Of a DNA stretch of 64,000 nt, positions 12,242 through 62,830 are shown in pieces; position 1 is the stretch's first letter; the number at the start of each line of letters is the position of its first letter. The notes under the pieces are model-generated. The model was not told where the DNA came from, did no database searches, and saw only the letters and a program-made list of their open reading frames with translations. The DNA is taken from positions 1-64,000 of the forward strand of contig NZ_JAJFBP010000002.1 in NCBI RefSeq assembly GCF_020697055.1, written 5' to 3'. The translations under genes and the position numbers were made by a program. Origin of the DNA: Panacagrimonas sp. (GTDB taxonomy: Bacteria; Pseudomonadota; Gammaproteobacteria; Nevskiales; Nevskiaceae).

Positions 12242-13333
12242 ATGCAGACAAACGAAGCGAAAGGCCCACTGGCGGGCATCAAGGTGGTGGAGATCGAAAG
12301 CATCGGGCCCGGCCCGTTCTGCGCGATGCTGCTGGCCGACCTGGGCGCGAACGTGCTCACCGTCGGCCGCGCCGGCAAGGTCGATCCGAACAGCGACGTG
12401 CCGGTGATCACGCGCAATCGCGCCGGTCGCGTGGGCCTGGACATGAAGAGCGCCGAGGGCAGGGACAAGGTGCTCGAGCTCGTCTCCAAGGCCGACGCGC
12501 TGATCGAAGGCTTTCGTCCCGGCGTGATGGAGCGCCTCGGCGTCGGACCCGACGACTGCCTGAAGGCCAATCCGCGCCTGGTGTACGGACGCATGACCGG
12601 CTGGGGCCAGGACGGACCGATGGCCTCGATGGCCGGCCACGACATCAACTACATCGCGCTATCCGGCGCGCTGCACTCGATCGGCACCAAGTTCTCCGGC
12701 CCGGTGCCGCCGCTGAACCTGGTCGGCGACTTCGGCGGCGGCGGTGTGATGCAGGCCTTCGGCGTCGTGTGCGCGCTGCTCGAGGTGCGCAACTCCGGCA
12801 AGGGCCAGGTCGTCGACACGTCGATGGTCGACGGCTCGGGCGCGCTGATGGCGATGCTCTACGGACTCAAGGCGTCCAGGCGCTGGCCCGCGCGCCGCGC
12901 CGGCAATTTCCTCGACGGCAGCGCCTGGTACTACCGCTGCTACGAGACCGCGGATGGCCAGTGGATGGCAGTCGGCGCGATCGAGCCGCAGTTCCGGCGG
13001 CTGTTCCTCGAAGGCATCGGCGTGGGCGAGCAGCACGACGCGATCTGTTCGCGCGGCGACCAGGACGAGGAGGTGCACCGCGAGATCGAGGCGATCTTCC
13101 GCTCGCAGGACCGCGCGTTCTGGGCCAAGCGGTTTGCCGGCAGCGACGCCTGCGTCGCACCGGTGCTCGCGATGGACGAGGTGGCGTCGGATCCGCACAA
13201 CATCGCGCGCAAGACCTTCCAGACGATCGATGGCGTGCTGCAGCCGATGCCGGCACCGCGCTTCAGCCGCACCGCCGCGCCGACGCCGGTGACCGGTCAT
13301 TCGGCCGCGCGCATCGCCGAGTGGGGCCTTTGA
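12242..13333 (+). CDS. CaiB/BaiF CoA-transferase family protein, alpha-methylacyl-CoA racemase-like
   Basis: This is a 363-residue class III CoA-transferase fold protein. The closest pattern is alpha-methylacyl-CoA racemase, which converts (R)- to (S)-2-methylacyl-CoA before beta-oxidation. The marks are [24 protein letters not shown] at the start (given here only as a region, residues 14-37), [24 protein letters not shown] and the [13 protein letters not shown] segment that holds the catalytic His and neighbouring Asp region. Adjacent acyl-CoA dehydrogenase supports a role with methyl-branched acyl-CoA. A true CoA transferase with another acceptor remains possible. Confidence 0.8.
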
Positions 13334-42922: not shown

Positions 42923-43013
42923 CAAAAGCCGTCACCGCAAAGGCAAAAGAAAGGACGCAAAGAAATGAATCTTTGCGTCCTTTTTCTTTTCTCTGCGCCT
43001 TTGCGGTTACGTC
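42923..43013. repeat. Long palindromic intergenic repeat, copy 2
   Basis: Left arm AAAAGCCGTCACCGCAAAGG then AAAGAAAGGACGCAAAG faces the right arm TTTGCGTCCTTTTTCTTTTC ending TTTGCGGTTACG. It lies between convergent genes CitE-like and icmF. Confidence 0.85.
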
Positions 43014-43040
43014 TGTAAACGGCGGCGCGGCAAGCCGGCC

Positions 43041-46000
43041 TTACATGTTGCGCCGATAACGCCCGCCCACCTCGAACAGCGCCTGCGTGATCTGGCCCAG
43101 CGAGCAGTGGCGCACGGCCTCCATCAGCACCTCGAAGGTGTTGCCGTTGCTGATCACCACGTCGCGCAGGCGCTGCAGCACCTGTTTGCCCGGTTCGCGA
43201 TGCGCGTCCTGGAAGCTCTTGAGGCGCTTGAGCTGGCTCTGCTTCTCCTCGTCCGAGGAGCGCGCGAGCTCGACGGTTTCGAGCGCGGCATCGCCGTGCG
43301 GATTGCGGAAGGTGTTCACGCCGATCAGCGGCAGCGAGCCGTCGTGCTTCTTGTGCTCGTACAGCATCGACTCTTCCTGGATCTTGCCGCGCTGGTAGCC
43401 GGTCTCCATCGCGCCGAGCACGCCGCCGCGGCCGGCGATGGCCTCGAACTCGCGCAGCACGGCCTCTTCGACCAGGTCGGTCAGCTCGTCGACGATGAAG
43501 CTGCCCTGCAGCGAGTTCTCGTTCTTGGCCAGGCCGAACTCGCGGTTGATGATCAGCTGGATCGCCATCGCGCGGCGCACCGACTCCTCGGTGGGCGTGG
43601 TGATCGCCTCGTCGTAGGCGTTGGTGTGCAGCGAGTTGCAGTTGTCGTTGATCGCGATCAGCGCCTGCAGCGTCGTGCGGATATCGTTGAAGTTCATCTC
43701 CTGGGCGTGCAGCGAACGGCCCGAGGTCTGCACGTGGTACTTGAGCTTCTGGCTGCGCTCGTTGGCGCCGTAGCGGTTCTTCATCGCCACCGCCCAGATG
43801 CGGCGGGCCACGCGGCCGATCACCGTGTACTCGGGATCCATTCCGTTGGAGAAGAAGAACGACAGGTTGGGCGCGAAGTCGTCGATCTTCATGCCGCGCG
43901 CCAGGTACGACTCCACGTAGGTGAAACCGTTGGCGAGCGTGAAGGCGAGCTGCGAGATCGGGTTCGCCCCGGCCTCGGCGATGTGATAGCCCGAGATCGA
44001 CACCGAGTAGAAGTTCTGCACCTTGTGCTGGACGAAGTACTCCTGGATGTCGCCCATCATCTTGAGCGCGAACTCGGTCGAGAAGATGCAGGTGTTCTGG
44101 CCCTGGTCCTCCTTGAGGATGTCGGCCTGCACGGTGCCGCGCACCGTCGAGAGCGTGTACGCCTTGATCTTGGCCGCTTCCTCGTCGTTCGGACCGCGGC
44201 CTTTTTCCTTCGTGAACTTTTCGACCTGCTGCTCGATGGCGGTGTTCATGAACATCGCCAGGATCATCGGCGCGGGGCCGTTGATGGTCATCGACACCGA
44301 CGTGGTCGGCGCGCACAGGTCGAAGCCGCCGTACAGCACCTTCATGTCCTCGAGCGTGCAGATCGACACCCCCGAGTTGCCGACCTTGCCGTAGATGTCC
44401 GGCCGCAGGTCAGGATCCCAGCCGTACAAGGTCACCGAGTCGAACGCCGTCGACAGGCGGTGCGCCGGCATGCCTTCGGAGACCCGCTTGAAACGACGGT
44501 TCGTGCGGAAGGCGTCGCCTTCACCCGCGAACATGCGCGTCGGGTCCTCGCCTTCCCGCTTGAACGGGAACACGCCGGCCGTGTACGGGTAGTAGCCCGG
44601 CAGGTTCTCCTTCATCAGGAAGCGCAGCGTCTCGCCGTCGTCCTCGTAGCGCGGCAGCGACACCTTGCGGATCGTGCTGCCCGACAGCGAGTCGGTGGTG
44701 AGCCTGGTGCGCAGCTCCTTGTCGCGCACCTTGGTGACCAGCTCGTCGCGCGAGTAGTCGGCCTGGATCGTCGGCCACTGGGCCAGCAGCTTGCGCGCAG
44801 CAGGGGTGAGCTCGCCGTCCTTGGACGACACCAGCTCGTCGAGACCTTCGACCGGCTTGCCGGCCGCCTCCAGCAGTGCCTTGGCGGTCTTCAGCGACTG
44901 GCGTTCGCGCGCCACGCGCGCCTGCGCCGCCACTTCCTTGTGATAACCGCGCACGCTGTCGGCGATGTCGGCGAGGTAGCGCACGCGCTCCGGCGGCACG
45001 ATCGCTCGACCGCCGCTGCTGCTCTTGACGGCGACCACCGGCAGCTTGCCGGCGGCGGGCTTGAGGCCTTTCAGCGTGAGCTTGGGCAGCATCGCCTGGT
45101 AGAGCGCGGTGACGCCGTCGTCGTTGAACCGCGCGGCCATCGTGCCGTACACCGGCATCGTGTCCGGCGCCCTCATGAACAGCTCGCGGTTGCGCTGGTA
45201 CTGCTTGCGGACGTCGCGCAGCGCGTCTTCGGCGCCCTTGCGGTCGAACTTGTTGATCGCCACGAAGTCGGCGAAGTCGAGCATGTCGATCTTCTCGAGC
45301 TGCGAGGCGGCGCCGAACTCCGGCGTCATCACGTACAGCGACAGATCGACGAACGGCACGATCGCCGCGTCGCCCTGGCCGATGCCCGAGGTCTCCACCA
45401 CCACCAGGTCGAAGCCCGCGAGCTTGCACGCGGCGATGACTTCCGGCAGCGCCGCCGAGATCTCCATGCCGGTGTCGCGCGTGGCCAGCGAGCGCATGTA
45501 GACATTGGGCGACTCGATCGCGTTCATGCGGATGCGATCACCGAGCAGCGCGCCGCCGGTGCGCTTGCGCGAAGGATCGATCGAGACGACCGCGACCTTG
45601 AGCTTGTCCTCCTGGTCCAGGCGCAGGCGCAGGATCAGTTCGTCGGTGAGCGAGGACTTGCCCGCGCCGCCGGTGCCGGTGATACCCAGCACGGGAACCT
45701 TGAGGCCCTTGGCCTTCTCGATCAGCTCGGCCTTGAGCGTGTCGGCGTAACTGCCACCTTCGAGCGCCGTGATGATGCGCGCCAGCGCGCGGCGATCGCC
45801 CGACTCGAGTGCGCCGAGCACTTCGCCGGCCTTGGGCGCCACTGCGGCGAGGTCCGCGTCGGACTTGCTCAACAGATCGTTGATCATGCCCTGCAGGCCC
45901 ATCGTCGCCCCGTCCTCCGGCGAGTAGATGCGCGCCACGCCGTAGCTCATCAGCTCGCGGATCTCGGCGGGCACGATCACGCCGCCGCCGCCGCCGAACA

Positions 46001-46307
46001 CCTTGATGTTCTCGCCGCCGTTCTCGCGCAGCAGGTCGACGATGTACTTGAAGAACTCGATGTGGCCGCCCTGATAGGACGTGATGCAGATGCCGTGAGC
46101 GTCTTCCTGCAACGCGGCGTTGACGATCTCGCCGGCCGAGCGGTTGTGTCCGAGGTGGATCACCTCGGCGCCGGAGCCCTGGATGATCCGGCGCATGATG
46201 TTGATCGACGCGTCATGGCCGTCGAACAGGCTCGTGGCCGTCACGAAGCGCACCTTGTGCTTGGACTTGTAGGGCGCCAGCTTGGCGGGGATCGACAGGT
46301 CGTTCAT
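43041..46307 (-). CDS. icmF: Fused isobutyryl-CoA mutase IcmF
   Basis: This is a 1088-residue adenosylcobalamin enzyme that interconverts isobutyryl-CoA and n-butyryl-CoA. Domains in order are the B12-binding domain with [12 protein letters not shown] (about 27-38), the built-in G-protein chaperone with Walker [10 protein letters not shown] (about 211) and NKFDRKG, a linker, and the large TIM-barrel substrate domain with [22 protein letters not shown] and [17 protein letters not shown]. Length and order match IcmF. It diverges from an AraC regulator and ends in front of a palindromic repeat. Related fused mutases can act on pivalyl- or isovaleryl-CoA, so specificity needs the active-site residues tested. 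Confidence 0.95.
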
Positions 46308-46409
46308 GGTCGGTTCCGATGACGGTGAAACAGGGGGGATGGGCAATGTACGCCGGTGGGACCGGGGGCGCGATGCCGGATTCTTGCGGGGGGCGTGACA
46401 GAATTCGAC

Positions 46410-47462
46410 ATGGCTGAAAATCCCGCGCAAGCGAGCGAACCGACGTCGGAATCCAAGGACAGCGTCTCGATCCACTTCGTCCGCGCCGCCCTGTCGGGCC
46501 TCGACGCGCGGGGCGTCGATCGCGCACCGCTGCTCGATGGCGCCGGCATCCCGGCGTCCCTGCTCGCCCACGACCAGTCCCGCGTCTCCGCCGAGAGCTT
46601 CGGCGCGCTGTGGCTGGCCATCGCGGCCGCGATCGACGACGAACTGTTCGGGCTCGATGCACGACGCATGAAGGTCGGCAGCTTCGCGGTGCTGTCACGC
46701 GCCTGCGCCCGGGCCGAGGACCTGCGCGGTGCGCTCAAACTGGCGGTCCAGTTCTTCAACGTGATGATGGACGACGCGCGCGTCTCGCTGATCGAGGGCG
46801 GCGATGCGGCGGCGCTGGAGATCGACGAGGCCACGCCGGCGCGGCGCCCGATGGCCGACACGATCTTCGCGCACGAGACGGTCCTGATCATGCTGCACGG
46901 CCTGATGTGCTGGCTGGTGGGCCGGCGCATCACGATGGATCGGGCGAGCTTCGCCTACGCGCGACCGATGTGGTGGGCCGAATACCAATCGATGTACGCC
47001 AACGACCTGCGCTTCGACGTCCCGCGCAGCCGCCTCGATTTCGACGCGCGCGTGCTCGCCGCCAGCGTCGTGCAGGACGAAGCCTCGGTGCGCGAGTTCC
47101 TGCGCGATGCGCCGCACAACTTCATCGTGAAGTTCAAGGACCGCAACAGCTGGAGCGCGCACGTGCGCCGACGGCTGCGCGCCTCACCGCCGTCGGAATG
47201 GCCGGACCTCGCGCAGATCGCCGAGGAGCTTGGCGTGGGGTTGTCGACGTTGCACCGCAAGCTCGACCAGGAAGGCGTGATCTTCCGCGACATCAAGGAC
47301 AGCCTGCGGCGTGACCTGGCGATCGACCGGCTGACGCATTCGACGGTCAGCGTCGCGCAGATCGCGGGCGAGCTCGGCTTTGCCGAGCCCAGCGCGTTCC
47401 ATCGGGCGTTCAAGCAGTGGACCGGCGTGCGGCCCGGGGACTACCGGCGCGGGGAGAACTGA
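46410..47462 (+). CDS. AraC-family transcriptional regulator
   Basis: This is a 350-residue regulator with an N-terminal Arabinose_bd-type sensing domain ([34 protein letters not shown]) and a C-terminal AraC helix-turn-helix pair ([21 protein letters not shown] and [25 protein letters not shown]). This architecture is common for regulators of fatty-acid and acyl-CoA catabolism. The ATG at 46410 faces icmF across 102 bases, so icmF is the likely target. Confidence 0.85.
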
Positions 47463-49178: not shown

Positions 49179-50672
49179 GTGTCGATCGACCACTTCGACG
49201 TACTGATCGTCGGCGCCGGCATTTCCGGCATCGGCGCGGCCTACCACCTGCAGACACAGTGTCCGACCAAGCGCTACGCGATCCTCGAGGGACGCGAATC
49301 GATGGGCGGCACCTGGGACCTGTTCCGCTACCCGGGCATCCGCTCCGATTCCGACATGTTCACGCTGGGCTTCCCGTTCCATCCGTGGAAGGAAGCCAAG
49401 GCGATTGCCGACGGTCCCGCGATCCTGCGTTATCTGAGGGAGACGGCGCAGACCTACGGCATCGATCGCCATATCCGCTACCAGCACAAGGTCGTGCGCG
49501 CCGACTGGTCGAGCACGGATGCGCAATGGACGGTGACGGTCGAACGCGGACCCGCCACGACGCCCGCGACGCTGACCTGCAATTTCTTCTACCTGTGCAG
49601 CGGCTACTACCGCTATGACCAGGGCTACATGCCGGGCTTCCCCGGACAGGACGCCTTCAAAGGCACGCTGATCCATCCGCAGAAGTGGCCGGAGACGCTC
49701 GACTACACGGGCAAGCGCGTGGTGATCATCGGCAGTGGGGCGACCGCGGTGACGCTGGTGCCGGCGATGGCGGACACGGCCGCGCACGTGACGATGCTGC
49801 AACGTTCGCCGAGCTACGTGCTGTCGCTGCCGGCGGTGGATCCGATCGCCAACGGCCTGCGCAAGCTGTTGCCGGAGAAGACCGCGCACAGCGTTTCGCG
49901 CTGGAAGAACGTGATGCTGAGCATCCTGGTCTACCAGCTCTCGATGCGTCGTCCGGCGCTGATGAAGAAACTGCTGCGCAAGGGCGTGGCCGCGCAGCTG
50001 CCCAGGGACTTCGACGTCGATACGCATTTCAATCCGCGCTACAACCCGTGGCAGCAGCGCCTGTGCCTCGTGCCGAACAACGATCTGTTCAAGTCGATCC
50101 GCAAGGGTCGCGCGTCGGTGGTCACCGACACCATCGAGACGTTCGAAGCCGACGGCATCCGCCTGAAGTCCGGCCGCAAGCTCGAGGCCGACATCGTGGT
50201 CAGCGCCACCGGGCTCGAGCTGCTGGCGATGGGCGGCATCCAGATCGGCGTCGACGGACGCGCGATCGAGCCGGCCGAGTGCTTCAGCTATCGCGGCATG
50301 ATGCTCAGCGGCGTGCCCAACGCGGCGGCGTGCATCGGCTACACCAACGCCTCGTGGACGCTGCGCGCGGACCTGGTCTCGCGCTGGGTGTGCCGCCTGA
50401 TCAACCACATGGATCGTCGCGGCGCCGCGATCGTGACGCCGCGGGTGCGCGACGCCTCGATGGGCGAGCTGCCGCTGCTCGACCTGACCTCGGGCTACGT
50501 CCAGCGCGCGGCCGGCAAGTTCCCCAAGCAAGGCGCGGTGGCGCCGTGGAACCTGCGCCAGAACTATGTGCTCGAGCGTCTGACACTGGGACGCGGGTCG
50601 CTCGACGACGGCGCGCTGGAATACAGCTCGCCGGCCGCCGGCACGGCGCGGCCGCTGGACAAGGCGGCGTAG
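49179..50672 (+). CDS. Flavin-containing monooxygenase (Baeyer-Villiger-type)
   Basis: This is a 497-residue FAD/NADPH enzyme. It has two Rossmann motifs (LIVGAGISGIGAAYHL at about 9; VVIIGSGATAVTLVPA) and the Baeyer-Villiger-type fingerprint FKGTLIHPQKW between them. ERG...GTWDLFRYPGIRSDSD is typical of FMO/BVMO. It inserts oxygen next to a ketone or on a heteroatom. The start is GTG 49179 with GGAGGAG six to twelve bases upstream. A ketone from branched or cyclic hydrocarbon catabolism is a plausible substrate. Confidence 0.85.
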   Translation: MSIDHFDVLIVGAGISGIGAAYHLQTQCPTKRYAILEGRESMGGTWDLFRYPGIRSDSDMFTLGFPFHPWKEAKAIADGPAILRYLRETAQTYGIDRHIRYQHKVVRADWSSTDAQWTVTVERGPATTPATLTCNFFYLCSGYYRYDQGYMPGFPGQDAFKGTLIHPQKWPETLDYTGKRVVIIGSGATAVTLVPAMADTAAHVTMLQRSPSYVLSLPAVDPIANGLRKLLPEKTAHSVSRWKNVMLSILVYQLSMRRPALMKKLLRKGVAAQLPRDFDVDTHFNPRYNPWQQRLCLVPNNDLFKSIRKGRASVVTDTIETFEADGIRLKSGRKLEADIVVSATGLELLAMGGIQIGVDGRAIEPAECFSYRGMMLSGVPNAAACIGYTNASWTLRADLVSRWVCRLINHMDRRGAAIVTPRVRDASMGELPLLDLTSGYVQRAAGKFPKQGAVAPWNLRQNYVLERLTLGRGSLDDGALEYSSPAAGTARPLDKAA

Positions 50673-54239: not shown

Positions 54240-55709
54240 ATGCAAATCGGGTCTCTCATTCGTCGCGCCGCCCTGCATTACGCCGATGCTCCTTGCCTGA
54301 CCGAAGGGGCACGCACCGTCAGCTTCCGCGAGTTCGATCGCCTCACCGACCAGCTCGGCAACGCGTTGTTGTCGCTGGGCTTGACGCCCGGCGACCGGGT
54401 GGGCGTCCTGCTTCCCAACGGCATCGATTGCCTGATCGCCTACTACGCGCTGGCCAAGGCCGGGCTGATCCGCGTGGGCCTGAACATCCGCGAGACGATG
54501 GACAACCAGCGCTACAAGCTGGGCGAGGTCTCGGCCCGCGGCTTGATCCACGGGCTGGACCAGGGCCTTGGGCACGAGTTCGACATCCCGCTGCCGCGGC
54601 TGCTGGAGCTGATCCAGACCGGCGAGAACAAGCCCTGCGCCATCGACCGGCCGCTGGACGCCCCCTACCGCCTGGCCTTCACCGGCGGGACCACCGGCAA
54701 CGCCAAGGCGGTGACCTTGACGACCCGTGGCGAACTGGCCGAGCTGGCGGCGTTCCTGGCCGACTTCGTTCCCGATCTGAAGGAAGGCGGCACGTTCCTG
54801 CACGCCTCGCCGATCTCGCATGCCTCCGGCGCCTTCTTCCTGCCGGGCCTGGCGCGCGGCGTGCGACACCTGGTGATGACCAAGTTCGAGCCCGCCGAAT
54901 TCCTCGAGCTCGCGGCGCGCGAAGGCGCCACGCACAGCTTCCTGGTGCCGACGATGCTCGCGATGATCCTCGAGCAGGACACGCGGCACGATCCGGAACT
55001 CAAGCTCAGCACGATCTTCTACGGCGCCTCGCCGATCTCGCCGGCCGTGCTGCAACGCGCCGAAGCGCGCTTCGGCCGCGTCTTTGCGCAGACTTATGGG
55101 CAGGCCGAGAGCCCGATGGTCATCACCTACCTGGCGGCCAAGGACCACGACCGCGTGGGCTCCTGCGGCCGGCCGTATTCGTTCGTCGAGGTCGGGATCG
55201 TCGACGAGAATGACAACTTCCTGCCGCCCGGCGAGACCGGCGAGATCGTCTGCCGCGGACCGCAGCTGATGTCGCACTACTGGAACCGCCCCGAGGCCAC
55301 CGAGAAGGCCTTCCGCAACGGCTGGCTGCACACCGGCGACGTCGGTCGCATGGACGCCGACGGTTTCTACTACATCCTGGATCGCAAGAACGACATGCTG
55401 ATCTCGGGCGGATTCAACGTGTATCCGCGCGAGGTCGAAGAGGTGCTGCAGGAGTTCCCGGGCGTGATCGAGACCGCGGTCGTCGGCCTGCCCGACGAGA
55501 AGTGGGGCGATCGCCTGCACGCGGTGATCACCGCGCGTCCCGGCGTGACCGTGGACGACGTGCTCGCCTTCGCAAGAACGAAACTTGCGGGCTACAAGAT
55601 GCCCCGCTCGATGGAGATCTGGCCGGAGCTGCCCAAGTCCGGCGCGAACAAGATCCTGCGACGGTCGGTGCGTGATCGCGTTCTGGCGTCACGCGGTTCG
55701 AGCACCTGA
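54240..55709 (+). CDS. Acyl-CoA synthetase/AMP-dependent ligase
   Basis: This is a 489-residue ANL-family ligase that activates a carboxylic acid to its CoA thioester through an acyl-AMP. It has the P-loop-like TGGTTGNAKAV (a common PK is AK), YGQAESPMV, DRKNDMLISGGFNVYP and the C-terminal catalytic Lys in PKSGANKILRR. The ATG at 54240 has AGGAGG nine bases upstream. A palindromic repeat follows at once, then the 202-aa unknown and PPDK-like genes. Its substrate would feed the downstream carboxylase if the cluster is one pathway. Confidence 0.85.
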   Translation: MQIGSLIRRAALHYADAPCLTEGARTVSFREFDRLTDQLGNALLSLGLTPGDRVGVLLPNGIDCLIAYYALAKAGLIRVGLNIRETMDNQRYKLGEVSARGLIHGLDQGLGHEFDIPLPRLLELIQTGENKPCAIDRPLDAPYRLAFTGGTTGNAKAVTLTTRGELAELAAFLADFVPDLKEGGTFLHASPISHASGAFFLPGLARGVRHLVMTKFEPAEFLELAAREGATHSFLVPTMLAMILEQDTRHDPELKLSTIFYGASPISPAVLQRAEARFGRVFAQTYGQAESPMVITYLAAKDHDRVGSCGRPYSFVEVGIVDENDNFLPPGETGEIVCRGPQLMSHYWNRPEATEKAFRNGWLHTGDVGRMDADGFYYILDRKNDMLISGGFNVYPREVEEVLQEFPGVIETAVVGLPDEKWGDRLHAVITARPGVTVDDVLAFARTKLAGYKMPRSMEIWPELPKSGANKILRRSVRDRVLASRGSST

Positions 55710-55815
55710 AAAGCCATCACCGCAAGGGCGCAAAGGAAAAAGAAAGGACGCGAAGAGGCAATCCAAAAAGAGCTTTGCGACCTTTCTTTTCCGTTTGCGC
55801 CTTTGCGGTCAACGT
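55709..55815. repeat. Long palindromic intergenic repeat, copy 3
   Basis: Left arm AAAAGCCATCACCGCAAGGG with GCAAAGGAAAAAG faces right arm CTTTCTTTTCCG ending TTTGCGGTC. It fills most of the 130-base gap between the ligase and the 202-aa gene. Confidence 0.85.
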
Positions 55816-55839
55816 ATTTGAAGCTTCGAGGAACGACGA

Positions 55840-56448
55840 ATGCAGATTCCGGATGCCCACCTCGTCCTGCACGGCCTCGCGATCAAGAAACACGCGGACG
55901 CCGCAGCGGTCGGCAAGCTCGTGGGCCTGCCGATAGAGCGCGCCAGCAAGGCGCTCGCCGACGCGGTCAAGCGCGGTCGTGCCAACGAGGCGCAGGGCCG
56001 CTTCATCCTCGCGCCGATGGCGCGCATGGCGCTCGACGGCGAGTACTCCAAGTACTACTCGGACCTGCGCGGCAACGCCGACTTCGTCGCCGCCTATGAA
56101 GGATTCGAGCGCATCAACGTGGAACTCAAGCAGCTGATCACCGACTGGCAGACGATCGATGTCGCCGGCAAGCGCGTGCCCAACGACCACTCCAACGCGG
56201 CGCACGACGAGAAGGTGATCAGCCGGATCGGTGACATGCACGAGCGCGCCGACAAGCTCTTCGCCCGTCTCGCGGCCGGCCTGCCGCGCCTGCAGATCTA
56301 TCGCGACCATCTGCTCCAGGCACTCGAGAAAGCCGAGGACGGCGCGATCGAGTGGATCAGCGACGCACGCATCGACAGCTACCACACCGTGTGGTTCGAG
56401 CTGCACGAGGAACTGCTGCGCCTGATGGGCAGGACGCGCGTGGAGTAA
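55840..56448 (+). CDS. Unknown protein with winged-helix-like N-terminus, partner of PPDK-like gene
   Basis: This is a 202-residue protein not assigned to a known family. Residues about 5-60 look like a winged-helix: LVLHGLAIKKHADAAAVGKLVG, PIERASKALADAVKRG and a strand-turn-strand RFILAPMARMAL. The rest is helical, with conserved-looking aromatic and charged residues (EYSKYYSDLRGN, YHTVWFELHEELLRL). It ends nine bases before the PPDK-like gene, on the same strand, so it is probably its dedicated partner or regulator. DNA binding is not shown. Confidence 0.55.
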   Translation: MQIPDAHLVLHGLAIKKHADAAAVGKLVGLPIERASKALADAVKRGRANEAQGRFILAPMARMALDGEYSKYYSDLRGNADFVAAYEGFERINVELKQLITDWQTIDVAGKRVPNDHSNAAHDEKVISRIGDMHERADKLFARLAAGLPRLQIYRDHLLQALEKAEDGAIEWISDARIDSYHTVWFELHEELLRLMGRTRVE

Positions 56449-56457
56449 CCGACGCCC

Positions 56458-57912
56458 ATGGCCACCCCGCTCGGAAAATGGACGCTCGCGCTCGATGGCG
56501 GCGCGGCCCCGGAACGCTCGCTGATCGGCGGCAAGGCCTGGTCGCTGGCGCGCATGCGCGAGCTCGACCTGCCGGTACCGCCGGCCTTCGTCGTCACCAC
56601 CCAGGCCTGCACCGAGTTCCTCAAGAGCGGCAGCGAGCCGCCGGAACTCGCGGCCGAGCTCGCCGCCGGCATCGCCTGGCTCGAAGCGCAGACCGGTCGC
56701 TCGTTCGGCCACGGATCAAAGCCGTTGCTCGTGTCGGTGCGCTCGGGCGCCTCGATCTCGATGCCCGGAATGATGGACACGGTGCTCAACCTGGGAATCA
56801 ACGCGGCGACCGAAGCCGCGCTGGCGGCCGAATGCGGTGATGCGGCGTTCGCACGCGACACGCACCGTCGGTTCGAGGAGCTCTATCGCAGCATCGTGCT
56901 GCGCGGGGATCCGGGCGAGGTTCCCGAAGCGGCGCCGTCGCAGCTGCAGGCCGCGGTGCGCGCGGTGTTCGACTCCTGGAATTCGCGGCGCGCCAAACGC
57001 TATCGCCAGCACAACAACATCCCGGACGACCTGGGCACCGCGGTGACCGTGCAGGCGATGGTGTTCGGCAACCTCGATGCGAACTCGGGCACCGGCGTGC
57101 TGTTCACGCGCAATCCGCTCGACGGAACGCCCGAGCCGTATGGCGAGTACCTGGCCCGCGCGCAGGGTGAGGACGTGGTCTCGGGCAAGTTCACGCCCAA
57201 GCCGCTCGAGGAGATGCGCAAGACCGTGCCGCAGGCGCTCGAGGCCCTGCTGGCCGCGGCGCGAACGCTCGAGCACGAACACCGGGACGTGCAGGACATC
57301 GAGTTCACGGTGCAGCAGTCGAAGCTGTGGCTGCTGCAGTCGCGCGCGGCCAAGCGTGCGGCACCGGCGGCGCTGCGCATCGCGGTGGATCTGGTCAACG
57401 AGGAGCGCATCGACAAGGCCACGGCGCTTTCGCGCGTGACGCCGGAACAGCTCGCCTCGCTCACCAATCCCTGTCTCGAGGATCCGGACAACGGCGGCAA
57501 GCCGCCGCTCGCGGCGGGCGAGTCGGCCTGCCCCGGCGTCGGCATCGGCATGGTCGTGACGGATTCCGACGAGGCCGAGAAGCGCGCCGCCGCCGGTGAA
57601 CACGTGGTGCTCGCGCGACCGACGACGAGCCCCGAGGACCTGCACGGCATGATCGCGGCCAAGGCGATCATCACCGAACAGGGCGGCAGCACCTCGCACG
57701 CCGCGGTGGTCAGCCGCTCGCTCGGCCGGCCCTGCGTGGTCGGATGTGGCGACGGATCGCTGACCGCGCTCAAGGGACGCGTCGTCACGGTCTGCGGCGC
57801 CACCGGTCGCATCCACGACGGCCCGCTGCCGGTGATGCGCCCCAGCGAGGTCAACGATTTCCGGCTCGCGCAGTTCATGGAATGGAAGCGCGTGGCCGAG
57901 CAGAAGAACTAG
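56458..57912 (+). CDS. PPDK/PEP-synthase-like protein without C-terminal barrel
   Basis: This is a 484-residue protein with the ATP-grasp half of pyruvate phosphate dikinase (GGKAWSLARMRELDLPVPPAF, VSVRSGASISMPGMMDTV, DVQDIEFTVQQSKLWLLQSR) and the phosphohistidine domain (GGSTSHAAVVSR with the transfer His; about 420). PPDK is normally near 880 residues and ends in a PEP/pyruvate-binding TIM barrel. That domain is absent here and not encoded just downstream. Truncated PPDKs of this size occur in actinobacteria. It could phosphorylate another substrate or a protein. The gene is coupled to the 202-aa gene and followed by the biotin carrier gene. Confidence 0.75.
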   Translation: MATPLGKWTLALDGGAAPERSLIGGKAWSLARMRELDLPVPPAFVVTTQACTEFLKSGSEPPELAAELAAGIAWLEAQTGRSFGHGSKPLLVSVRSGASISMPGMMDTVLNLGINAATEAALAAECGDAAFARDTHRRFEELYRSIVLRGDPGEVPEAAPSQLQAAVRAVFDSWNSRRAKRYRQHNNIPDDLGTAVTVQAMVFGNLDANSGTGVLFTRNPLDGTPEPYGEYLARAQGEDVVSGKFTPKPLEEMRKTVPQALEALLAAARTLEHEHRDVQDIEFTVQQSKLWLLQSRAAKRAAPAALRIAVDLVNEERIDKATALSRVTPEQLASLTNPCLEDPDNGGKPPLAAGESACPGVGIGMVVTDSDEAEKRAAAGEHVVLARPTTSPEDLHGMIAAKAIITEQGGSTSHAAVVSRSLGRPCVVGCGDGSLTALKGRVVTVCGATGRIHDGPLPVMRPSEVNDFRLAQFMEWKRVAEQKN

Positions 57913-57928
57913 AGGGATACGCTTTTCG

Positions 57929-58411
57929 ATGAACAAGAAGCCGACGGCACAGGATCTCGAATCGCTGATGGACATGTTCGAGAAATCGGACTGGAAGGAG
58001 CTCGACCTGCGAATGGAAGGCTTCGAGCTGTACCTGTCGAAGGACCCCTCGCGACGACGCGGCGGCAGCACGCCGCCTCCCCGCCTGCGGGGAGAGGGCG
58101 CGGGTGAGGGGCCCGCGCCGATCAGTGCGCCTTCCGCAACGTCGGCGAGCGCTTCGGCGGTTCCCGCCCACTGGATCGCCGTGAAGGCGCCCAATCTCGG
58201 CACCTTCTATCGCGCACCCAAACCCGGCGCCGCGCCCTACGTGCAGATCGGCCAGGTGGTCACACCCGAGACCGAGGTCTGCCTGATCGAGGTGATGAAG
58301 CTGTTCACCTCGGTACGCGCCGGCGTCGCGGGCACGGTGCGCCAGATCGCCGTGCAGGATGCGGAGATGGTCGAGCACGATCAGGTGCTGATGTACATCG
58401 AGCCGGCGTGA
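57929..58411 (+). CDS. accB: Biotin carboxyl carrier protein (AccB-like) with repeat-encoded linker
   Basis: This is a 160-residue carrier. An N-terminal acc-like helix region (LESLMDMFEKSDWKELDL) leads to a Pro/Ser/Ala-rich linker and the biotinyl domain with Lys124 in VCLIEVMKLFTS. The linker residues about 50-62 (PPRLRGEGAGEGP) are encoded by a copy of the GGGGAGAGGG palindrome in frame. It lies 16 bases after the PPDK-like gene and upstream of biotin carboxylase. Confidence 0.85.
   Translation: MNKKPTAQDLESLMDMFEKSDWKELDLRMEGFELYLSKDPSRRRGGSTPPPRLRGEGAGEGPAPISAPSATSASASAVPAHWIAVKAPNLGTFYRAPKPGAAPYVQIGQVVTPETEVCLIEVMKLFTSVRAGVAGTVRQIAVQDAEMVEHDQVLMYIEPA
58076..58113 (+). repeat. GGGGAGAGGG palindrome within the accB coding region
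   Basis: The sequence CCTCCCCGCCTGCGGGGAG followed by AGGGCGCGGGTGAGGGG lies inside codons 50-62 and reads through in frame. It matches the intergenic copies at 28282-28400 and 61498-61541 in core and orientation of the GGTGAGGGG edge. Confidence 0.75.
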
Positions 58412-58427
58412 ACTCGATGGACGACAA

Positions 58428-58532
58428 CAGCCGTCACCGCAAAGGCGCAAAGGTGAAAAACGAGGACGCAAGGTTTTTGTTCATCTTTTCCTTTGCGTCC
58501 TTTCTTTTCCTTTTTGCCTTTGCGATGACGTC
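58428..58532. repeat. Long palindromic intergenic repeat, copy 4
   Basis: Left arm CAGCCGTCACCGCAAAGGCG (58428-58447) faces right arm CCTTTTTGCCTTTGCGATGA (58509-58528); the inner arms GAGGACGCAAGG and CCTTTGCGTCCTTTC also face each other. It lies between accB and the biotin carboxylase gene. Confidence 0.85.
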
Positions 58533-58547
58533 TTTGGCTCCTCGTCC

Positions 58548-59903
58548 ATGAAACGACTGCTGATCGCCAACCGCGGCGAGATCGCGCTGCGCATCGTGCG
58601 CGCGGCCCATGCGCTGGGCATCGAATCGGTGCTCGCGGCCTCGGCCGCGGACAAGGACAGCCTCGCCGCCCGGGAGGCCGATCGCACGGTCGTGCTGGGT
58701 CCGGCCAAGGCCTCGCTGTCATACCTGGATCCCAAGCTCGTCGTGCACGCGGCCAAAGCCACCGGCTGCGATGCGCTGCATCCGGGTTATGGATTCCTGT
58801 CCGAGCGAACCGCGCTGGTCACGCTGTGCGAGGACAACGGCATCGCGTTCGTCGGACCGACCGCGACCTCGATGGACCAGGTCGGCGGCAAGATCGCCGC
58901 GCGCGAGCTGGCCGCCGGCGCGGGTGTTCCGCTCGTGCCCGGCAGCGGCGCGCTCGCCAGCGCCGACGAGGCGCTCGCGTTCGCCGAGACGGTCGGCTTT
59001 CCCGTCGTGACCAAGGCCTCCGCCGGAGGCGGCGGTCGCGGCATGGTGGTGGCGCACAGCGCCGCCGAACTTCGCGAGGGATTCGAGCGCGCCTCGCACG
59101 AGGCCAAGGAAGCGTTCGGCGACGGCACGTTGTTCCTCGAACGGTTCGTGCAGACCGCGCGCCACATCGAAGTGCAGGTGATGGGCGACGGCAACGGCAA
59201 GGTGCTGCATTTCGGCGAGCGCGACTGCTCGGCGCAGCGCCGCTACCAGAAGATGGTCGAGGAAGCCCCCGGCGCGATCCTGCCCGACGCGGTGCGCGCG
59301 CGGCTGCACGAGTCCGCGGTGCGCCTGCTGTCCTCGATCAAGTACCGCAACGCCGGCACGGTCGAGTTCCTGTACGACGTCGAGCGCCAGGCGTTCTATT
59401 TCATCGAGGTCAACGCGCGCATCCAGGTGGAGCATCCGGTGTCGGAGCAGATCTGCGGCGTGGACCTGATCCAGATGCAGCTGCGCGTCGCCGGCGGCGA
59501 GCCGCTGGCCCTGGAACAGCAGGACATCCAGCGCCGCGGCCATGCGATCGAAGTGCGCGTGATCGCCGAGGATCCGGAACGTAACTTCGCGCCTTCGCCG
59601 GGCCGCATCACGCGCTGGGTGCCACCCGTCGGCGACGGCGTGCGCCTGGACAGCGCGATGTTCGAGGGCGCGATGGTGCCGCCGTTCTACGACAGCATGA
59701 TCGCCAAGCTGATCGTCTCGGGGTCCGATCGCGCCACGACGGTCACGCGTCTCCAGCGCGCGCTCGACGCCTTCGTGATCGACGGCATCGCCACCAATCT
59801 CAGGCTGCTGCGGCACATCGCCGCGCACCCGGATTTCATTGAAAACCGCATCTCGACGCGCTGGCTCGAGCAGACCCTTCTACCCAGCTTTGCCCGGGGT
59901 TGA
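58548..59903 (+). CDS. accC: Biotin carboxylase (AccC-like)
   Basis: This is a 451-residue ATP-grasp enzyme that carboxylates biotin on the carrier protein with bicarbonate and ATP. It starts KRLLIANRGEIALRIVRAAHALGI, has LHPGYGFLSE, KASAGGGGRGMV, LERFVQTARHIEVQ and FYFIEVNARIQVEHPVSEQ. Length fits AccC. It lies between two repeat copies, with accB upstream and a carboxyltransferase downstream, so the genes form a three-part biotin-dependent carboxylase. Confidence 0.9.
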   Translation: MKRLLIANRGEIALRIVRAAHALGIESVLAASAADKDSLAAREADRTVVLGPAKASLSYLDPKLVVHAAKATGCDALHPGYGFLSERTALVTLCEDNGIAFVGPTATSMDQVGGKIAARELAAGAGVPLVPGSGALASADEALAFAETVGFPVVTKASAGGGGRGMVVAHSAAELREGFERASHEAKEAFGDGTLFLERFVQTARHIEVQVMGDGNGKVLHFGERDCSAQRRYQKMVEEAPGAILPDAVRARLHESAVRLLSSIKYRNAGTVEFLYDVERQAFYFIEVNARIQVEHPVSEQICGVDLIQMQLRVAGGEPLALEQQDIQRRGHAIEVRVIAEDPERNFAPSPGRITRWVPPVGDGVRLDSAMFEGAMVPPFYDSMIAKLIVSGSDRATTVTRLQRALDAFVIDGIATNLRLLRHIAAHPDFIENRISTRWLEQTLLPSFARG

Positions 59904-59912
59904 GACCTCAAC

Positions 59913-60018
59913 CACGTCACCGCAAAGGCGCAAAGGAAAAAACAAGGACGCAGAGTTTCCAATCATTTTTTTCATTGCGACCTTTCTTTTCCTTTGCGCC
60001 TTTGCGGTGACGGCTTTT
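59913..60018. repeat. Long palindromic intergenic repeat, copy 5
   Basis: Left arm CGTCACCGCAAAGGCGCAAA, GGAAAAAACAAGGACGC faces right arm TTGCGACCTTTCTTTTCCTT and GCGCCTTTGCGGTGACGGC. It lies between accC and the carboxyltransferase gene. Confidence 0.85.
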
Positions 60019-60031
60019 TGGAGCACATCCT

Positions 60032-61486
60032 ATGGCCCACATTGAATTCCTCGACGAGACCATGCGCGACGGGCAGCAGAGCCTGTGGGGCATGCGCATG
60101 CAGGCCGGCATGGCGCTGCCGGTGGCGCCGATGCTCGATCGCACCGGTTTTCGCGTGATCGACCTGACCGGCTCCTCGATGTTCGAGGTGATGATCCGCA
60201 CGTGCCGGGAAGATCCCTGGGCCGGGCTGGACCTGCTGACGCAGGCGATGCCGCGCACGAAGATCCGCGGCGGCATGCGCAGCAATGCCAGCGTCACGTT
60301 CCAGGTGACCCCGGATGCGCTGATGGACGCGTGGATGCGCCAGCTCAACCGGCACGGCTGCCGCTCGTTCTGGATCTACGACGTGCTGTTCAACATCGAC
60401 AAGATGCACCGCCTCGCGAAAGTCGCGAAGGAATTCGGCTCGGAAGTCGCGGGCAGCATCATGTTCGCGCTCTCGCCGGTGCACACCGACGAGTACTACG
60501 CCGACAAGGCGCAACAGCTCTCGGCCTCGCCGGACATCGACACGATCCTGCTGTACGACACCGGTGGCGTGCTCGAAAAGGAGCGCCTCAAGACGCTGCT
60601 GCCTGCGATCAAGGCGAAGTCGCGTGGCAAGCCGATCGAGTTCCATTCGAACAACATCCTGGGACAGTCCGCCAAGGCGTATGTCGATGCCATCGAGCTC
60701 GGCGTGAGCATCCTGCACACGGCGAGCCGGCCGCTGGCCAACGGCCCTTCGGTGCCGTCGACCGAGATCATGGTCCACAACATCGAACTGCTCGGACACA
60801 CGCACTCGCTCGACAAGCGCCTGTTCAAACCGGTGGCCGATCATTTCGAGAAGGTCGGCAAGGCCGCCGGGTATCTGGTCAACCAGGCCAACGAATACGA
60901 CGTGCTCGCGATCCAGCACCAAGTGCCGGGCGGCATGACCGGAACGCTCAAGGCGCAGCTCGAGAAGCACGGCATGAGCCATCGCCTCGAAGAGGTGTTC
61001 CGCGAGACCGCGGTGGTGCGCAGGGAGCTCGGCTATCCCGGCATGGCGACGCCGTTCTCGCAGCTGGTCGGCATCCAGGCGGTGCTGAACATCGTCACCG
61101 GCAAGCGCTACGGCACCGTGCCCGACGAAGTGATCCAGTACGCCGCGGGTTACTACGGCCAGACCGTCGCGCCGATCGAACCCAACGTGCTCGACAAGAT
61201 CATGTCCGCCCCGCGCGCCAAGCAGATCCTGGCCAATCCACCCGAACAGCCGACGATCGAGGAGCTGCGCAAGCAGTACGGAACCGACGACGACGACGAG
61301 CTGATCCTGCGCGCGCTGGTGCCGCAGGCGGACATCGAGAAGATGCGCGCCGCCGGACCGATCAAGACCTCGTTCCCGCTGCTGTCGTCGCCCGAGCTCG
61401 ACCAGGTCGCGCGACTGATGAAGATCGCGAAGTCGCCGGTGGTGCAGCTGACGATGGGCGGGATGTCGGTGGAGTTGGCGCGCTGA
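60032..61486 (+). CDS. HMGL/pyruvate-carboxylase-like carboxyltransferase with altered metal site
   Basis: This is a 484-residue TIM-barrel carboxyltransferase in the DRE-TIM superfamily. It opens IEFLDETMRDGQQSLWGMRM (pyruvate carboxylase: DTTFRDAHQSL) and has EDPW (about 60). By my alignment the carbamylated Lys in IKDMAG of pyruvate carboxylase is Tyr175 here (LYDTGG) and the HxH metal pair is HSN (His205, Asn207). The C-terminal 100 residues resemble the PycB/OadA helical tail. It follows accB and accC and should accept carboxybiotin, but the acceptor is unlikely to be pyruvate. Confidence 0.75.
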   Translation: MAHIEFLDETMRDGQQSLWGMRMQAGMALPVAPMLDRTGFRVIDLTGSSMFEVMIRTCREDPWAGLDLLTQAMPRTKIRGGMRSNASVTFQVTPDALMDAWMRQLNRHGCRSFWIYDVLFNIDKMHRLAKVAKEFGSEVAGSIMFALSPVHTDEYYADKAQQLSASPDIDTILLYDTGGVLEKERLKTLLPAIKAKSRGKPIEFHSNNILGQSAKAYVDAIELGVSILHTASRPLANGPSVPSTEIMVHNIELLGHTHSLDKRLFKPVADHFEKVGKAAGYLVNQANEYDVLAIQHQVPGGMTGTLKAQLEKHGMSHRLEEVFRETAVVRRELGYPGMATPFSQLVGIQAVLNIVTGKRYGTVPDEVIQYAAGYYGQTVAPIEPNVLDKIMSAPRAKQILANPPEQPTIEELRKQYGTDDDDELILRALVPQADIEKMRAAGPIKTSFPLLSSPELDQVARLMKIAKSPVVQLTMGGMSVELAR

Positions 61487-61582: not shown

Positions 61583-62830
61583 TTACGCGTTGCGCCCCAG
61601 CACCGTGATGCACGCCGCCGCTTCCTCCACGCCGAGAAACCCGCCGCCGTTCTCCGCGATCGCGAAGCGCGCGTCCGGCACCTGGCGCGGACCCGCCTCG
61701 TGCCGCAGCTGCGTGACCAGCTCGTGGATCTGCGCCAGTCCCGTCGCGCCGATCGGATGGCCCTTGGATTCGAGTCCGCCGGAAGGATTGACCGGGATGC
61801 GGCCGCCCAGCTTGGTGGCGCCCGACTCGGCGAGTTTTCCGCCGGCGCCGAGCTCGCAGAACATCAGGTTCTCGGTCTGCAGCACTTCGGCGAACGCCGA
61901 CGCGTCGTGCACCTCGGCCACCGAGATATCTTTCGGCCCGATGCCCGCGACGTCGTACGCGCGCTGCGCGGCCTTGTGGCAGACGTGGTCGGCGTATTGC
62001 TCGAGTGAGCGCTTGCGCCCCGCGGCCACCACGCTCGCCATCAGCTTGACCGCGCGTTTGGCATCGAACCGGGCCAGCGCGCCGCGCGTGCACAACACCG
62101 CGGCGGCGGCGCCGTCGCTCACCGGCGAGCACATCGGCAACGTCAGCGGCCAGGCGACCGGACGACCGGCGAGGACCTCATCCACCGACATGTCGTGGCG
62201 AAACTGCGACAGCGGATTGAGCGTGGAATGAAAGTGGTTCTTGGCCGCGACATGCGCGATCTGGCGCTGCGTCGTGCCGAAGCGCTTCATGTGGTCGCGC
62301 GCCAGCCCCGCGTAGATGTCCATGAAGACCGAACGTGCGGACCTGGCCTCGATCTCGGCGATCTTCGGTGGAACGAGTTCCTCGGCGACGTTCTTGAGTC
62401 CGGCGAGCGTGGCCTGTGCGTTCTCGACGTCCCAGCAGCCTTCGAACAGCGCGAAGATCTTCTGCTTGTCCTCGACGCACATCTTTTCGCAGCCGACCGC
62501 GAGCACGATCTCGCCCAGGCCGGCCTGAAGATAGGCGGCGGCCTGCGACAGCGCGGTGCTGGCGCTCGCGCAGGCGTTCTCGACGTTGAACACCGGCACG
62601 CCCTCGATGCCGGCGGCCTGCAGCGCGATCTGTCCTCGCACCGCCTGCTGGTTCTCGAGCGCGCCCTGCCCCACGTTGCCGAACCACGCGGCCTCGATGT
62701 CGGCGGTGGTGCAGCGCGCATCGGACAGCGCGAGCCTCACGGCCTGCGCGGCAAGCTGCCGGAAGGACTTGTCGGGCTGCTTGCCGAACGGCGTCATGCC
62801 GACGCCGACGATGTAGATCTCTTCGCGCAT
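61583..62830 (-). CDS. Thiolase (SCP-x/acetyl-CoA acetyltransferase type)
   Basis: This is a 415-residue thiolase with an intact active site: catalytic cysteine in NVENACASASTALSQ (about 85), and GHPIGATGLAQI near the C-terminus. VPVFNVENACASAS and VAEVHDASAFAE suggest the SCP-x branch, which cleaves 3-oxo-branched or sterol side-chain acyl-CoA. It is convergent with the carboxylase cluster and may finish the degradation of the chain. The ATG at 62830 is typical. Confidence 0.85.
   Translation of the reverse strand: MREEIYIVGVGMTPFGKQPDKSFRQLAAQAVRLALSDARCTTADIEAAWFGNVGQGALENQQAVRGQIALQAAGIEGVPVFNVENACASASTALSQAAAYLQAGLGEIVLAVGCEKMCVEDKQKIFALFEGCWDVENAQATLAGLKNVAEELVPPKIAEIEARSARSVFMDIYAGLARDHMKRFGTTQRQIAHVAAKNHFHSTLNPLSQFRHDMSVDEVLAGRPVAWPLTLPMCSPVSDGAAAAVLCTRGALARFDAKRAVKLMASVVAAGRKRSLEQYADHVCHKAAQRAYDVAGIGPKDISVAEVHDASAFAEVLQTENLMFCELGAGGKLAESGATKLGGRIPVNPSGGLESKGHPIGATGLAQIHELVTQLRHEAGPRQVPDARFAIAENGGGFLGVEEAAACITVLGRNA

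Follow-up and report, generated by a model that had tools for sequence, protein, structure and literature searches.

The closest described parallel to the gene cluster analysed here is the Hpe/Acv route, a pathway for lignin compounds that was described recently. Its substrates are acetovanillone and 4-hydroxyacetophenone, and its hosts are Rhodococcus rhodochrous GD02 and Sphingobium SYK-6. There, hydroxyacetophenones first receive a phosphate from the kinase HpeHI and are then carboxylated by HpeCBA, in their phosphorylated form only, and the later steps are carried out by the phosphatase HpeD, the ligase HpeE and the hydrolase HpeF (PMC9618137, PMC12167813, PMC13101465). Acetophenone carboxylase, Apc, has also been described (PMC5214803). 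The kinase VadK (Rv1127c) of Mycobacterium tuberculosis was found to autophosphorylate on His422 and to pull down methylcitrate enzymes, and was proposed as a regulator of the methylcitrate cycle (PMC13400623). Here, a 64,000-nucleotide stretch of Panacagrimonas sp. (contig NZ_JAJFBP010000002.1, positions 1 to 64,000; hereafter the window) was found to carry six plus-strand genes (54240-61486) encoding an acyl-CoA ligase, a 202-aa protein, a PPDK-like protein of the VadK type, a biotin carboxyl carrier protein (BCCP), a biotin carboxylase subunit (BC) and a carboxyltransferase (CT). All six open reading frames were recovered in the order and on the strand given in an earlier note on this DNA, and their assignment with Pfam and NCBIfam profiles agreed with the families named there.

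We read this cluster, with a probability of roughly 0.6, as most of a phospho-primed ketone carboxylation pathway, in which a substrate would be phosphorylated, carboxylated, dephosphorylated and thiolysed. The operon is real and conserved, and was not described as such in the literature searched. What is new is its kinase, a multi-part kind related to VadK and likewise undescribed in that literature, which comprises two further proteins, c6 (517 aa) and c7 (250 aa, with a PEP-utilizers swivel domain). No report of a PPDK combined with a carboxylase was found in the same literature, which did not cover the MarK survey of kinase-carboxylase clusters, so that an earlier mention is possible.

Scanning named genomes with the CT alignment gave 129 relatives, from which 80 loci were kept; those assigned were 43 alphaproteobacterial, 24 gammaproteobacterial, 3 betaproteobacterial and 2 actinobacterial. 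The earlier note had suggested looking for the six-gene order in other genomes, and ligase-202-VadK-BCCP-BC-CT were indeed consecutive in 37 of the 80 loci, from alpha-, beta- and gammaproteobacteria. The extended order c7-c6-ligase-202-VadK-BCCP-BC-CT occurred in 34/80, many of the loci outside these counts being interrupted by contig ends. Gene order is kept across several classes and about 20 families, and on this synteny a chance neighbourhood was rejected. Sphingomonads have the same parts in another order (c6-BCCP-BC-CT-ligase-thiolase ... SurE ... c7-202-VadK), which speaks for a shared function rather than an inherited neighbourhood. That the genes work together as a single unit is supported, and the linkage seen in other genomes overturns the objection, raised in the earlier note against its own proposal, that the 202-aa and PPDK-like genes might never be carboxylase-linked there. 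The module is nevertheless uncommon. Among 398 Pseudomonadota genomes, the window's own genome was the sole carrier of the 202-aa protein. Among the matches listed for 299 genomes, VadK in its stand-alone form was confined to the window genome, except for one weaker 557-aa case and fragments, the remaining above-cut-off matches to the VadK profile being full-length PPDKs. Four of the loci (L059, L063, L065 and L067) lie in records titled Klebsiella pneumoniae MAG (metagenome-assembled genome), organism labels that look wrong for their gene content.

The PPDK-like protein lacks its barrel, as the earlier note had perceived: only PPDK_N and PEP-utilizers were matched, the TIGR01828 match ended at position 523/865, and no barrel family was found with Pfam or NCBIfam. 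A PPDK would carry a C-terminal PEP/pyruvate barrel; the window protein has the architecture of VadK and PRK05878, an ATP-grasp and a swivel His with no pyruvate barrel, and scored 693 bits against PRK05878 (cut-off 456). The His of the VadK GG-T-SH motif was present in 60/61 rows, with one gap, and that of the c7 RSH motif in 48/49 rows, with one X (row L128 was left out of the c7 alignment). The invariance of the swivel His in both proteins suggests a phosphorelay. No Pfam or PDB sequence match was found for c6, and its 523-aa AlphaFold2 (AF2) model (pLDDT 84.8) gave no match to rifampin phosphotransferase (RPH) or the PDB with Foldseek or VIA, which does not by itself show a new fold. The 202-aa protein also had no Pfam, NCBIfam or PDB sequence match. 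Its AF2 model (pLDDT 95.9) exhibits an N-terminal winged helix and a C-terminal helical domain, residues 1-73 matching MarR-type winged helices, and several homologues are annotated as MarR regulators.

Gene fusions connect these parts. Loci L076, L077 and L115 encode c6 and 202 as a single protein (only fusion rows were used in the c6/202 alignment, 202-only rows having been misplaced by the aligner), R. oxybenzonivorans (L130) has a c7-c6 fusion, and all three of c7, c6 and 202 are joined in one protein of Rhodococcus opacus B4. The fusions involving 202 argue for a structural or docking role of this protein within the kinase. Whole-genome searches of six genomes having VadK in the CT locus and no c6 nearby revealed c6 and 202 elsewhere in 6/6, versus 0/6 for six genomes having CT and no VadK at the locus; four of the latter six belong to sphingomonad relatives and thus do not represent six independent events. 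Together, fusions and co-occurrence indicate that the kinase parts form one unit. A different fusion was seen on a plasmid of Rhodococcus LW-XY12 (L182:7815-9986), where the 202-aa domain lies at the C-terminus of an AMP-binding ligase.

In the window genome, c7 and c6 lie side by side on another contig, C35, with a Y_phosphatase3-like gene, an MFS transporter and a 3-hydroxybutyrate dehydrogenase as neighbours, and Panacagrimonas perspica has c7, c6, transporter and dehydrogenase laid out in the same way. Y_phosphatase3 adjoins c7-c6-202 in all six other genomes whose kinase parts are detached from the carboxylase. The order Y_phosphatase-c7-c6-202 is found in five of these modules, the phosphatase being on the opposite side in the sixth, and in two of the six the module is immediately followed by a further CT of the same clade. 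Y_phosphatase3 also occurs in Rhodococcus P23/S2-17, and SurE in many other loci.

The CT is closest to PycB and OadA. Alignment to solved PycB, OadA and 5S structures placed D13, Y175, H205 and N207 at the canonical Asp/Lys/His/His metal ligands; two of the four are lost, the carbamylated Lys being replaced by Tyr175 and a His by Asn207 (HxH to HxN). The changed metal site reported in the earlier note is correct and clade-specific, Y175 and N207 being common to 15/15 rows examined of the window CT clade, and is therefore not a sequencing error. Class B CTs (those of Rhodococcus plasmids, and one paralogue in the window genome) have Glu in place of Lys and keep HxH; Hpe-like CTs keep Lys as well as HxH. 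In the CT tree, the window clade (support 100/100) groups with class B (100/99) as sister to Hpe-like CTs, represented by R. leguminosarum and bisphenol degraders as stand-ins for HpeB, and these three groups split from canonical CTs (96/92). The metal site considered characteristic of the family has thus been lost in an entire CT clade, which is identified here. The class B paralogue of the window genome (Lys to Glu, HxH kept) belongs to a second kinase and carboxylase cluster (C45:953-6977, L040), with a DUF7065-like protein, an APH-type kinase, a BCCP and a thiolase-like gene, the biotin carboxylase gene being absent alongside. DUF7065 proteins recur beside VadK-type or APH-type kinases in catabolic clusters (L180, L179, L184 and L040).

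We infer the order of the steps, the relay and a ketone acceptor as follows. A multi-part dikinase (VadK-type protein, 202-aa protein, c6 and c7) would phosphorylate a small-molecule substrate at the expense of ATP, the phosphoryl group taking a predicted route from VadK-His414 to the swivel His of c7 and on to the substrate held by c6. BCCP, BC and CT would then carboxylate the carbon adjoining the ketone, using biotin and a second ATP, and the phosphate would be removed by a SurE-like or Y_phosphatase3-like phosphatase, in the window genome presumably the Y_phosphatase3-like one beside c7 on C35. The ligase would form a beta-ketoacyl-CoA and the thiolase would split it into acyl-CoA and acetyl-CoA; in some relatives, a BKACE would take the place of both. 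The use of ATP on biotin and on activation of the acceptor, which the earlier note had put forward, now appears by analogy the best reading, since the sister carboxylase HpeCBA accepts only phosphorylated substrates (PMC9618137). In 8 alphaproteobacterial loci, the cluster is directly preceded by a thiolase orthologue (66-79% identity). Beta-keto acids are the compounds that BKACE enzymes cleave, in a reaction with acetyl-CoA; the presence of a BKACE in 4 loci, all 4 of them without the ligase, agrees with a product of this type and, by extension, with a ketone as the acceptor. Beta-oxidation genes are frequent near the loci, a weak hint at an aliphatic remainder of the substrate. Phosphorylation-primed biotin carboxylation, so far known for hydroxyacetophenones, is suggested to be more widespread as a catabolic strategy, and its kinase, phosphatase and exit modules may be interchangeable.

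Several observations weigh against a phospho-primed pathway. The kinase parts lack end-to-end homology with HpeHI, and for c6 no relative was detected in the PDB. About 40% of the longer loci yielded no phosphatase. In six genomes, the carboxylase occurs in the absence of c6 and 202, an ABC transporter taking their place in two, and phosphorylation by the VadK system is thus not strictly required for the CT clade. A regulatory role is also conceivable, since M. tuberculosis VadK was proposed as a regulatory histidine kinase (PMC13400623), and homologues of the 202-aa protein, which contains a winged helix, carry MarR regulator annotations. In two loci with the same CT clade and no VadK system found (L087 and L091), a branched-chain-type ABC transporter and a thiolase or BKACE adjoin.

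Some of these points would be accommodated if VadK and the 202-aa protein were, by analogy with M. tuberculosis, an ATP-sensing regulatory protein kinase controlling a carboxylase that acts on an unphosphorylated ketone or keto acid. The autophosphorylation of His422 and the methylcitrate enzyme pull-down (PMC13400623), the DNA-binding-like winged helix and the six genomes that have the carboxylase but neither c6 nor 202, nor VadK at the locus, are consistent with such control, which we nonetheless consider unlikely: VadK systems mostly come with c6/c7 or another ATP-grasp-free swivel protein, parts that would be superfluous in a pure regulator; 202 belongs to the c7-c6-202 fusion; and a phosphorylated metabolite is favoured both by the phosphatases and by the Hpe precedent. 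A little less credible still is a kinase that makes the enol phosphate of a simple ketone, as PEP synthase does with pyruvate, for a metal-free CT that carboxylates it with loss of phosphate, the nearby phosphatases being unrelated. The PPDK/PEP-synthase ancestry of VadK, the loss of a metal site that normally aids enolisation, and the 3-hydroxybutyrate dehydrogenase (above cut-off) and MFS transporter beside c6/c7 in this genus would suit this chemistry, but the barrel domain that makes enol phosphates is absent, the conserved phosphatases would be redundant, and HxH is retained in those class B CTs that come with a VadK system. That an ordinary pyruvate/oxaloacetate-type carboxylase lies by chance beside an unrelated kinase remnant is very improbable. 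Although the best named match of the CT is pyruvate carboxylase subunit B, its score fell under all PycB/OadA cut-offs (NCBIfam), it belongs to a separate clade, and it lacks the carbamylated Lys and HxH ligands of pyruvate carboxylase and oxaloacetate decarboxylase. On these cut-offs, clade and residues an ordinary pyruvate carboxylase was rejected, and gene order conserved over several classes and about 20 families argues against chance.

VadK-type proteins extend beyond carboxylation. VadK with its 202-aa partner and no carboxylase was found on plasmids of Mycobacterium avium, M. branderi, Methylibium petroleiphilum PM1, Diaphorobacter and several Rhodococcus; these sets usually include a swivel protein devoid of an ATP-grasp of its own, and a tyrosine-phosphatase-like or APH-like gene is frequent among them. 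The M. avium plasmid proteins share 53% identity (VadK) and 43% over 115 residues (202) with those of the window. A 202-aa homologue lies directly beside VadK on the M. avium and M. branderi plasmids, through which the Rv1126c-type partner was judged, rather than through Rv1126c itself. In M. petroleiphilum PM1, a fuel-ether and tert-butanol degrader, the VadK-like protein is longer; on its plasmid (L177/L178), c6, c7, a 202 homologue and the VadK-like protein occur in a region with a B12 mutase and a Rieske oxygenase, a setting in which the breakdown of tertiary alcohols might include a kinase step. From these sequence comparisons, VadK proteins generally may be the ATP-activating part of a metabolite kinase. 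Tentatively, and with less confidence than for the pathway itself, VadK, 202, c6 and c7 could represent an unrecognised small-molecule kinase family with a phosphorelay resembling the phosphotransferase system (two swivel His domains in series), used in many catabolic clusters for carboxylation or in tert-butyl-alcohol/xenobiotic regions, together with a CT clade whose carboxylation would dispense with the customary metal centre. On this view, M. tuberculosis VadK would provide the ATP activation for a metabolite kinase of this sort, rather than, or besides, acting as a protein regulator. The orphan, virulence-linked M. tuberculosis VadK gains a consistent partner set, and its biochemistry becomes directly testable in harmless bacteria.

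The AMACR-type, thiolase, monooxygenase and IcmF genes, which had led the earlier note to a branched or isoprenoid carbon source, are all present in the window (Table 1). Among them, only the thiolase shows conserved cluster linkage; no conserved linkage of the AMACR and IcmF genes was seen in the 80 loci, and the suggested carbon source was abandoned. A steroid or oestrogen substrate, hinted at by Sphingobium estronivorans, was rejected as limited to one genome. A paper on testosterone (PMC6895838) concerns propionyl-CoA carboxylase, not the window CT. Acetone, hinted at by the 3-hydroxybutyrate dehydrogenase near c6/c7, was likewise rejected, this gene being restricted to this genus, and is kept within the enol-phosphate alternative; outside this genus, the short-chain dehydrogenase/reductase near c6/c7 is a different one (about 31% identity). 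A dispersed palindromic repeat of ~100 nt (CACCGCAAAGGCGCAAAGG...) occupies three of the longer gaps of the operon, with a further copy at window positions 42924-43016, and related repeats occur in two of the same gaps in P. perspica. Within the BCCP linker, the stretch RRRGGSTPPPRLRGEGAGEG resembles a translated palindromic repeat inserted into the coding region.

Table 1. Features of the six-gene cluster and its surroundings in the window
Feature	Coordinates	Strand	Basis
AMP-forming acyl-CoA ligase, predicted for beta-keto acid / carboxylated product	54240..55709	+	PF00501/PF13193
Palindromic dispersed repeat, ligase/202 gap, outside the function	55709..55820	.	blastn copies, self-complementarity
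202-aa protein, putative VadK-type kinase partner	55840..56448	+	without family; AF2 model; fusions in relatives
VadK-type kinase: PPDK ATP-grasp + swivel domain, predicted catalytic His414	56458..57912	+	PPDK_N + PEP-utilizers; PRK05878
BCCP	57929..58411	+	PF00364/TIGR00531; biotin Lys in EVMKL
Palindromic dispersed repeat, BCCP/BC gap	58426..58536	.	blastn copies, self-complementarity
BC subunit	58548..59903	+	Biotin_carb_N/CPSase_L_D2/Biotin_carb_C, full ATP-grasp set
Palindromic dispersed repeat, BC/CT gap	59914..60018	.	blastn copies, self-complementarity
PycB/HpeB-like CT, altered metal site Y175, N207	60032..61486	+	PF02436/HMGL-like; tree
Thiolase, SCP2/Thiolase_C_1 type, likely final step	61583..62830	-	PF00108/PF22691
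CoA-transferase III (AMACR of the earlier note)	12242-13333		
IcmF-like fused mutase	43041-46571	-	read from sequence
FMO-type monooxygenase	49179-50672		

Compared with described systems, the window system shares with the Hpe/Acv route a kinase, a three-subunit biotin carboxylase, a phosphatase, a CoA ligase and an acyl-CoA cleavage step, and its three-component carboxylase is homologous to HpeCBA, with the CT in a sister clade (Hpe-like rows standing in for HpeB). The assumption of the earlier note that biotin carboxylases do not come with PPDK-like phosphotransferases is mistaken, since they do in the Hpe, Acv and Xcc clusters, whose chemistry was published in 2022. The kinases differ: HpeHI consists of a substrate-binding and swivel protein of about 600 aa and a 350-aa ATP-grasp protein, whereas the window system combines the PPDK-type VadK with 202, c6 and c7, and the HpeHI-like proteins of a yardstick locus (L134; 603 aa and 354 aa) match VadK weakly. 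SurE or Y_phosphatase3 is found instead of a HAD-family phosphatase in the cluster, the window CT is without the Lys and one His of the metal site, a thiolase or BKACE replaces the Hpe hydrolase, and the taxonomic spread is different. Because neither the Hpe-defining kinase nor the Hpe-defining phosphatase was found when looked for, the system is best regarded as working like the Hpe pathway without being a member of it.

Apc and acetone carboxylase (Acx) also catalyse an ATP-costly carboxylation of ketones to beta-keto acids, but are not biotin-dependent and not homologous to the window carboxylase. Phenylphosphate synthase (PpsAB), CreHI and RPH are small-molecule dikinases with the same ATP-grasp and swivel-His logic; they have one swivel His domain, in contrast to the two of the window system (VadK and c7), and no sequence or fold match to the substrate-binding domain of RPH was found for c6. 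The VadK (Rv1127c)/Rv1126c operon shares with the window protein the PRK05878 family, the domain content and the catalytic His, and is matched by the plasmid VadK-202 pairs of Mycobacterium. M. tuberculosis VadK adjoins methylcitrate genes, whereas the VadK of the window is linked to a carboxylase, a ligase and c6/c7.

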